A DNA stretch of 35,657 nucleotides from Candidatus Solincola daggyaiensis (GTDB lineage: Bacteria; Actinomycetota; Geothermincolia; Geothermincolales; RBG-13-55-18): contig JACVJD010000022.1 of NCBI GenBank assembly GCA_015711825.1, forward strand, positions 1 to 35,657, in the 5' to 3' direction. Under the pieces are notes generated by a model. That model did not search any database and had not been told where the DNA came from. It saw only the letters and a list, made by a program, of their open reading frames with translations. The translations under genes were made by a program, and so were the position numbers. Shown in pieces: positions 335-2,470 of the stretch. Positions within the stretch are counted from its first letter, which is position 1, and each line of letters opens with the position of its first letter.

Positions 335-1078
335 GTGGCTTCCGAGAGCGAAGAGCGCAAGCGGCATCCGGCGCTTAAGCCCCCGGCCACGCGCATCGCC
401 GTCCCCGACCTGGGTGGCGGCTACCGCGTATTGGACGTCCACGATCGCGATTTTGAGTCTTTCGTCCTTGGTGTAAGCGATATATTGAGCACCAGGCTTT
501 CCGCGGGCGGGGTACCCTTCCCCTCCGTCGCCCTGCGCGAGGTGCTTGAGAATCTTGTTCATGCGGTCCCCTGCTCGGCCAGCGTCGTTTTAGACCCCAC
601 ACTCTCTTTTATCTCCGTATGTGATAACGGCCCCGGTATGGAGCGCGCCGATATCGCGCTCGAGCTCGGTTTTACCACCGCCGATCAACGTCATCGGGAG
701 ATCATTCGTGGAGTGGGTATAGGCTTGAATATCGCCCTTGAGGAACTTCGCTCCCTGGGAGGAGAGCTGCTTCTCGACTCCCTTCCAGGAAGGGGCACCT
801 TTGTGAGGTTGGTCGTTTCTCCCCTTTCTAAAGGTCGCGGTCTCTCCGACGCCGTGCTCGAACTCACGCCGCGCCAGAACAACATTCTTTTCCTGCTTTC
901 CGAGGGCACGGTCATGGGCCCCTCCCAGATATCGTCGGAGCTCGGTATCGGCCTCGGAACCGCCCATCGCGAACTCGTGCGGTTACAGGAGCTCGGCTTG
1001 GTGGGCGTCGAAAAAAATGGTAAAAGATTCCTTTCAACCGCCGGGAAGTCCTACTTGCAGAGGCTTCTGTCGCTGTAA
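335..1078 (+). CDS. GHKL ATP-binding domain fused to a C-terminal winged HTH, next to dnaA
   Basis: A protein of about 247 residues. The N-terminal half has the GHKL (HSP90/histidine-kinase/MutL) nucleotide-binding signatures: an N-box (REVLENLVHA), a G1 box (DNGPGM) and a G2 box (GVGIGLNIA), ending with GRGTFVRLVV. No phosphoacceptor-histidine domain precedes it, so it is not an ordinary sensor kinase. The last 70 or so residues (from LTPRQNNILFLL) look like a MarR/ArsR-type winged helix-turn-helix with a recognition-helix-like segment (SQISSELGIGLGTAHREL). I chose GTG 335 because AGGAAGGAG lies six bases upstream; a TTG at 314 is in frame but lies upstream of that ribosome site. It precedes dnaA by 48 bases on the same strand. 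The likely role is a nucleotide-responsive DNA-binding regulator; the target is unknown, with the adjacent origin or dnaA as obvious candidates. Confidence 0.8.
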   Translation: MASESEERKRHPALKPPATRIAVPDLGGGYRVLDVHDRDFESFVLGVSDILSTRLSAGGVPFPSVALREVLENLVHAVPCSASVVLDPTLSFISVCDNGPGMERADIALELGFTTADQRHREIIRGVGIGLNIALEELRSLGGELLLDSLPGRGTFVRLVVSPLSKGRGLSDAVLELTPRQNNILFLLSEGTVMGPSQISSELGIGLGTAHRELVRLQELGLVGVEKNGKRFLSTAGKSYLQRLLSL

Positions 1079-1126: not shown

Positions 1127-2470
1127 ATGACTCATAAAATCGACCTGTTATGGCAAAAATGCTTGGATTCACTTCAGGAACGAGTTCCTGAGTCGTCTTC
1201 TATGTGGTTTAAGAACCTTCATGTCCATAAAGTTGAGGGTTCGACTCTTTTTATATACACGAACAATACCTTTACTAAAGAGTGGGTGGACAAACGCTTC
1301 CTGGGCCTTCTTCAACAAGCGGCCGCGGAAGTGTTTCCGGGAGTAGATGAGGTAAAGGTAGTCCTCAAGGACCGCAGAAAGAAACCGGGGCGCGATCCGG
1401 TTTACCTTGACGTCAACATCCTCTCTGAGTCGGAGGGTATGGACGAGGGTGGGGACCTAAACCCGAGGTTCACCTTCGAGACCTTCGTCATCGGTTCCAG
1501 TAACCGTTTCGCTCATGCCGCCGCTCTCTCGGTATCCGAGAACCCTACTTCTTATAACCCCCTGTATATTTACGGCGGTGTGGGACTCGGCAAGACCCAT
1601 CTCCTTCATTCCATCGGTCACTATACAAAACACCTCTTCCCCGGTTTTAAGGTGCTTTATCGGAGTTCTGAACAGTTCCTCAACGACTTTATCAACGCCC
1701 TTTCCTCCGGGCGCACCTCGGCTTTCCAGAAAAGGTATCGTTCCATCGATATGCTCCTGGTTGACGACATCCAGTTCCTCGCCAACAAAGAGAGGACCTT
1801 GGAGGAGTTTTTCCACACCTTTAACGAACTTTATAACAACAACAAACAGATCGTTTTGAGCAGCGACCGTCCTCCGGAGGAAATCGGCGGTCTGCAGGAC
1901 CGGCTGGTTTCGCGTTTTAAGTGGGGTTTGACGACCGATATCCAGCCCCCTGAGTTGGAAACCAGAATCGCCATCCTCCGCAAAAAATCCGCCCTTGATA
2001 AAAAAGACGTCCCGGACGACGTCATCGACTTCATCGCCTCCAAATTCGTGTCCAACATCAGGGAGCTGGAGGGGGCCCTCATTCGGGTGGTCGCTTATTC
2101 AAACCTCACCAAGGAACCGCTCTGTCTGGACATGGCGAAGGAGGTTTTACGCGATATCCTTCCCGCAGAAGAGGACAGAACTATAACCATCGAGCACATC
2201 ATGAAGACCACGGCCGATTTCTTCAATATCTCCTTATCTCAGCTTACCAGTCCTAATCGCTCGCGGCATCTCGTCACCGCGAGGCAGATATGTATGTATC
2301 TATGTAGGGAGTTGACCGACGCATCCCTTCCCGCCATAAGCGGCGCCTTCGGAGGAAGACATCATTCCACCACCATTCACTCCGTGGAAAAAATAAAGAA
2401 ACTCATGGAGGAGAAGAGGGATATTTACGACGCGGTGCAAAAACTGACCAACCGTATAAAACAGGGGTAG
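1127..2470 (+). CDS. dnaA: Chromosomal replication initiator DnaA
   Basis: DnaA binds DnaA boxes at oriC, opens the DNA and recruits helicase. The 447-residue protein has the normal domain order: domain I (residues 1-85, WFKNLHV), a short linker, the AAA+ domain III with Walker A at about 150-157 (GGVGLGKT) and Walker B at about 210-215 (LLVDDI), and domain IV with the signature region at 409-416. That signature reads GGRHHSTT where most DnaA proteins have GGRDHTTV, so the aspartate that contacts the box is replaced by histidine while the following histidine is kept. ATG 1127 is preceded by AGGGG at eight bases. The gene lies left of the composition switch, so it appears to be transcribed toward the origin spacer that separates it from dnaN. 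Confidence 0.97.
   Translation: MTHKIDLLWQKCLDSLQERVPESSSMWFKNLHVHKVEGSTLFIYTNNTFTKEWVDKRFLGLLQQAAAEVFPGVDEVKVVLKDRRKKPGRDPVYLDVNILSESEGMDEGGDLNPRFTFETFVIGSSNRFAHAAALSVSENPTSYNPLYIYGGVGLGKTHLLHSIGHYTKHLFPGFKVLYRSSEQFLNDFINALSSGRTSAFQKRYRSIDMLLVDDIQFLANKERTLEEFFHTFNELYNNNKQIVLSSDRPPEEIGGLQDRLVSRFKWGLTTDIQPPELETRIAILRKKSALDKKDVPDDVIDFIASKFVSNIRELEGALIRVVAYSNLTKEPLCLDMAKEVLRDILPAEEDRTITIEHIMKTTADFFNISLSQLTSPNRSRHLVTARQICMYLCRELTDASLPAISGAFGGRHHSTTIHSVEKIKKLMEEKRDIYDAVQKLTNRIKQG

Follow-up and report, generated by a model that had tools for sequence, protein, structure and literature searches.

A GHKL/winged-helix-turn-helix gene directly upstream of dnaA in several bacterial phyla, a candidate regulator of DnaA or replication start

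Introduction

The coupling of replication initiation to the state of the cell is known mainly from Escherichia coli, Bacillus and Caulobacter. In Bacillota, DnaA-linked regulators include YabA, which is an inhibitor of initiation, as well as Soj, SirA and Spo0A. Gene order close to the origin is generally conserved.

The GHKL (Bergerat-fold) ATP-binding domain is found in proteins of very different function. In MutL, GyrB and SpoIIAB, the N box of this domain carries a Glu residue, which in SpoIIAB is the proposed catalytic base. SpoIIAB, the anti-sigma F factor, is a GHKL Ser kinase and the nearest well-studied relative, by fold, of the protein described below.

Here, we analyzed a 35,657-nucleotide stretch of DNA from Candidatus Solincola daggyaiensis (the window). 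An earlier note, made from the sequence alone, had reported that a gene immediately upstream of dnaA codes for a GHKL ATP-binding domain fused to a C-terminal winged helix-turn-helix (HTH), and had proposed a role at the origin. We employed comparative genomics, structure prediction and fold comparison to examine this gene, its neighborhood and its occurrence in other organisms.

Results

The gene occupies positions 335-1078 of the forward strand, begins with a GTG start codon preceded by AGGAGTGGAAG, and encodes a protein of 247 amino acids. Its reading frame ends 48 bp before the ATG of dnaA (1127-2470, forward strand), in agreement with the spacing given earlier. The two genes lie on the same strand, no intrinsic terminator is predicted between them, and their linkage is conserved, so that by sequence the gene appears to lead a dnaA operon. 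In Coriobacteriia, Aquicultor and relatives, gene and dnaA almost touch, which would fit a single transcript and translational coupling. The wider gene order is rpmH (divergent), DnaA boxes, the GHKL gene, dnaA and dnaN, usually followed by recF and gyrB; besides dnaA, no conserved neighboring partner gene was found (STAS and sigma factor genes lay outside the profile search).

Among 59 sampled relatives, most members of the family had the gene, and dnaA followed directly in those loci. A profile search of Actinomycetota detected it in 122 of 296 genomes, nearly always as a single copy. When 84,980 species genomes were scanned, 438 relatives were returned, and 80 of these were kept as loci. 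Their titles name Solincola, Aquicultor, Hakubella, Subteraquimicrobium, Coriobacteriia and Slackia, and further Armatimonadetes, Sysuimicrobiota/ANGP1, Zipacnadia, UBP13 and Bacillota MAGs. Three extra phylum samples, labeled as given in the record titles, contained the gene in 18/149 Bacillota-type, 38/43 Sysuimicrobiota-like and 3/61 Armatimonadota-like genomes. It is missing from many Actinomycetota and Bacillota.

Linkage was counted over 128 distinct loci, four of which had no room downstream. Among the 124 scored, 122 had dnaA downstream on the same strand, with a median gap of 37 bp. The other two were missed by the linkage script: the genome of L021 carries dnaA downstream, and in L179 dnaA was located 79 bp downstream with other DnaA queries. 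Thus, the 124 loci with room included no exception, and no copy elsewhere than before dnaA was found in the genomes searched. The earlier note had made its proposal depend on a linkage that extends beyond close relatives, and the linkage does so, across at least four phyla.

Pfam HATPase_c matched residues 66-161 above its cut-off (E 4.9e-10), and HTH_IclR and HTH_5 matched residues 179-223 with scores slightly below theirs. All NCBIfam models fell well short of their own cut-offs on the 247-aa protein, and the family therefore has no name there. The structure prediction that had been called for, with a 66-row alignment as input, gave a confident model (pLDDT 89.6, pTM 0.67), in which a GHKL fold extends to approximately residue 160 and is joined by a short linker to a winged HTH at residues 179-247; it contains no helical dimerization or His domain.

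The predicted domains were compared with known folds by VIA-align 2. The N-terminal part matched DIP2311 (3lmm; Z 14.9, 146 residues) and SpoIIAB (1tid; Z 13.5, 2.3 A over 122 residues), and the C-terminal domain matched E. coli MarR (5h3r; Z 13.4, 1.1 A over 72 residues). From Pfam HATPase_c, conservation, predicted structure and these matches, the GHKL domain was assigned to residues ~18-160 (386-814, forward strand), with an alpha/beta sandwich and all three boxes of the superfamily: an N box (E69/N73/H76), G1 (D97-x-G-x-G101) and G2 (G126-x-G-x-G130). The C-terminal winged HTH, also noted earlier, is supported by predicted structure and superposition on MarR as a MarR-like domain of residues 179-247 (869-1075, forward strand).

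The absence of a histidine kinase dimerization domain, noted earlier, was borne out as well: there was no HisKA match, and residues 1-60 are predicted to form a beta hairpin and a single helix. A sensor histidine kinase was ruled out, as the protein has neither a HisKA match nor a phospho-acceptor His domain ahead of GHKL.

Residue conservation was assessed in 66 aligned sequences, with relatives 30-63% identical to the window protein. The key residues of the three boxes, which the earlier note had recognized, are conserved: E69-x3-N73-x2-H76 of the N box and D97-x-G99-x-G101 of G1 are invariant, as are G126, V127 and G130 of G2, and G128 is conserved in >90%. H76, inside the N box, is the sole invariant His. 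Invariant residues of the HTH include P196, R212, L217 and the wing residue R231; the last three are, like the residues of the boxes, conserved across phyla. ATP hydrolysis or Ser/Thr transfer is possible by analogy, because the N-box Glu is common to this protein, MutL, GyrB and SpoIIAB.

In some Coriobacteriales copies (L021; e.g., in G090 and G130), the linker is long and of low complexity, and the C-terminal domain has diverged strongly. In a Solincola tengchongensis MAG (L012/L067), a low-coverage assembly, the gene is frameshifted within the winged HTH part, which may reflect sequencing error or decay.

The position at the origin, claimed earlier, is supported by GC skew: in two members of the family, G013 and G002, the gene is 0.8 kb and ~2.3 kb, respectively, away from the cumulative minimum, which places the locus at the origin. 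The reported clusters of DnaA boxes were also recovered. Allowing up to one mismatch, TTATCCACA occurs 11 times in the window versus 2.5 expected, and four of these sites are within 1-334 and 2471-2720. Upstream of the gene, a DnaA-box triad, TTTTCAACA-n2-TGTGGAAA-n4-TGTGGATAT, occupies positions 113-144. It lies ~220 bp before the gene, which is thus situated between the triad and dnaA. A further DnaA-box-like site, TTATACACA, is present on the reverse strand at 246-254, and its position is conserved within the genus.

Within 4 mismatches, the triad was detected in 54 of 81 loci and in 0 of 78 coding controls. With fixed 11/12-bp steps, it occurs across classes of Actinomycetota, with and without the gene (L061-L140, L141-L166). 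Judged by this sequence conservation, it is ancestral and part of the DnaA and origin, or dnaA regulatory, region; since many genomes that lack the gene have it as well, it cannot be claimed as a target of the GHKL protein. For the same reason, the near-palindromic TTTTCCACA-n2-TGTGGAAA was dropped as a candidate dimer operator. The upstream alignments revealed no operator specific to the protein and no palindromic operator apart from the DnaA boxes; only an extended -10 element and the DnaA boxes were conserved.

The dnaA-dnaN intergenic region (2471-2708) contains two DnaA-box-like sites (2499, 2567), has a GC content of 34% versus 63% for the window and is probably the second part of the origin. 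An 82-aa ORF in this AT-rich gap (2476-2724) shows no conservation in relatives and is probably spurious; the region of this ORF resembles an unwinding element.

Two putative promoters were assigned. P1 (48-76, forward strand) consists of TGGCCA, 17 nt and the extended -10 element TGCTATAAT at 68-76. Each of the 12 close relatives that carry the gene has a perfect TATAAT 41-51 bp upstream of the triad, and 11 of the 12 also have the extended TGn. P1 was not found in G006, a relative without the gene. The putative dnaA-proximal promoter P2 (1052-1084, forward strand), composed of ACTTGCAG followed by CTGTAATAGAAT, overlaps the last codons and the stop codon of the gene. The P2 elements ACTTGCAG and CTGTAATAGAAT, which were also noted at 1420-1455 of L141, are conserved across the order and are retained in G006. 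The Leu codon inside P2 is TTG in 8/8 genes, versus 13% of Leu codons elsewhere in those genes. P2 is likely a second promoter, for dnaA. No Rfam element was detected in the leader of the gene. The DnaA boxes 3' of P1 suggest that DnaA in turn controls the GHKL gene.

Patristic distances of the GHKL protein and DnaA are correlated (rho 0.61, versus at most 0.14 in 500 permutations), and the GHKL protein evolves ~1.5 times faster. When the gene was mapped on a 140-row DnaA tree, its distribution required 7 changes versus 25 in shuffles. In G006, which belongs to the same family, dnaA is present and the GHKL gene absent; in its dnaA leader, the triad remains, as does the promoter of the gene's 3' end with the region of the former stop codon, and the gene body and upstream TATAAT are gone. 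The few changes on the tree, together with this loss, indicate that the gene was inherited with dnaA, was sometimes lost and is not universally required. The clean loss shows, for this one lineage represented by a draft genome, that the gene is not essential and that initiation can go on without it; mis-assembly could conceivably account for the missing gene.

A phage or plasmid origin was also considered and rejected, as no match was present in the phage or plasmid collections searched. Fold matches among viral proteins were mainly to histidine kinases and generic HTHs.

In the Bacillota-type sample, 72 of 149 genomes had YabA. It was present in 0 of the 18 genomes with the GHKL gene versus 8.7 expected (Fisher p 3e-6, with kinship ignored), and lineage alone could be behind this exclusion. 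Most of these 18 genomes have Spo0A.

Discussion

The linkage in multiple phyla makes this protein a strong candidate for the control of DnaA or of replication start, because its gene directly precedes dnaA in every relative examined. Our preferred reading, to which we give a probability of roughly 0.55, is a DNA-binding regulator that responds to ATP, is made with DnaA and acts on the dnaA operon and/or on initiation. This reading draws on the predicted folds, the conserved ATP-site and HTH residues, the location at the origin, the tight linkage, the shared inheritance with DnaA and, subject to the reservation about lineage, the lack of co-occurrence with YabA. From its domains and location, we infer ATP dependence, a DNA target that includes the origin, an effect on initiation and coupling to energy state. 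In the proposed mechanism, the protein would be produced together with DnaA from the shared operon. Nucleotide binding would then change the pairing or conformation of GHKL domains, as in the N-box Glu proteins SpoIIAB, MutL and GyrB, and the state of this domain would set whether the winged HTH grips DNA of the origin or the dnaA promoter region. This grip could tune dnaA transcription or DnaA assembly. What speaks against a regulator is that no operator specific to the protein was identified: upstream, only DnaA boxes and a -10 element are conserved, and genomes without the gene still have the triad. The absence of the gene from many Actinomycetota and Bacillota also counts against it.

The invariant N-box Glu, and the position of SpoIIAB near the top of the GHKL fold matches, would also fit a kinase or partner switch of the SpoIIAB/RsbW type, in which the GHKL domain would phosphorylate or sequester a protein partner, be it DnaA, a sigma factor or some other regulator, and DNA binding would serve for recruitment only. 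However, this Glu equally serves the plain ATPases MutL and GyrB, and the only conserved adjacent partner gene is dnaA, so we regard such a switch as unlikely. P1 and P2, on either side of the gene, are conserved; in G006, where the gene was lost, P2 is kept and P1 was not found. These observations could point to a plain dnaA autoregulator, in which the winged HTH would act on P1/P2 as a repressor or activator and the GHKL domain would be a dimerization module with a structural nucleotide and no energy sensing. This possibility is rather doubtful, as an invariant N-box Glu with complete G1 and G2 boxes across phyla suggests that the role of the domain is not purely structural, and it would have to do without a palindromic operator besides the DnaA boxes.

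Finally, the gene might be a neutral passenger whose function has nothing to do with replication and which stays in the dnaA transcription unit because rearrangements at this site are harmful. The generally conserved order near origins and the fact that the gene can be lost are compatible with this idea, but hitchhiking should give occasional relocated copies, whereas the linkage is near-perfect in more than one phylum and no copy was found elsewhere in the genome; we consider a passenger highly improbable. A broader and more tentative version of the regulator reading is that the protein represents an ancient class of initiation regulators, in which a GHKL-ATP switch with a winged HTH would gate DnaA at the origin according to the ATP state that it reads; this class might extend from Actinomycetota to deep Bacillota, with YabA-type control replacing it elsewhere in Bacillota.

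Both domains were already known, and their fusion is in itself unsurprising. We found nothing relevant to this dnaA-linked gene in the open-access literature searched, in which its lock to dnaA over multiple phyla appears to be undescribed. That dnaA has kept such a partner gene in several phyla, although the gene is unnamed in NCBIfam and no paper on it was found, suggests a layer of control unseen in model organisms. Coriobacteriia include cultured gut species, and the role of the gene is thus directly testable.

Sensor histidine kinases, which provide the best Pfam and PDB sequence matches, have the GHKL catalytic-type domain in common with this protein. It differs from them in having no dimerization/phospho-His domain and no sensor, an N-box Glu where they have Asn, and an added DNA-binding domain. 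SpoIIAB is similar in its N-box Glu and Asn and in its lack of a His dimerization domain. However, SpoIIAB and RsbW are stand-alone GHKL proteins with sigma or anti-anti-sigma neighbors, and SpoIIAB pairs with SpoIIAA and sigma F, whereas the present protein is fused to a winged HTH, its gene always adjoins dnaA with no such partners adjacent (the conserved neighbors are rpmH and dnaA-dnaN), and its match to TIGR01925 is weak and far below the cut-off. DIP2311 of Corynebacterium diphtheriae, the best fold match of the N-terminal part, is much longer and only 14% identical in sequence; to our knowledge, its function is not established and it has no known link to dnaA. The C-terminal domain resembles winged HTH factors of the MarR/IclR/ArsR type, with weak Pfam IclR and ArsR matches, but lacks the dimerization helices of MarR and is fused to an ATP-binding domain. 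YabA, Soj, SirA and Spo0A have folds unrelated to that of the GHKL/winged HTH protein; what it would share with these DnaA-linked regulators of Bacillota is its proposed target, DnaA or the origin.
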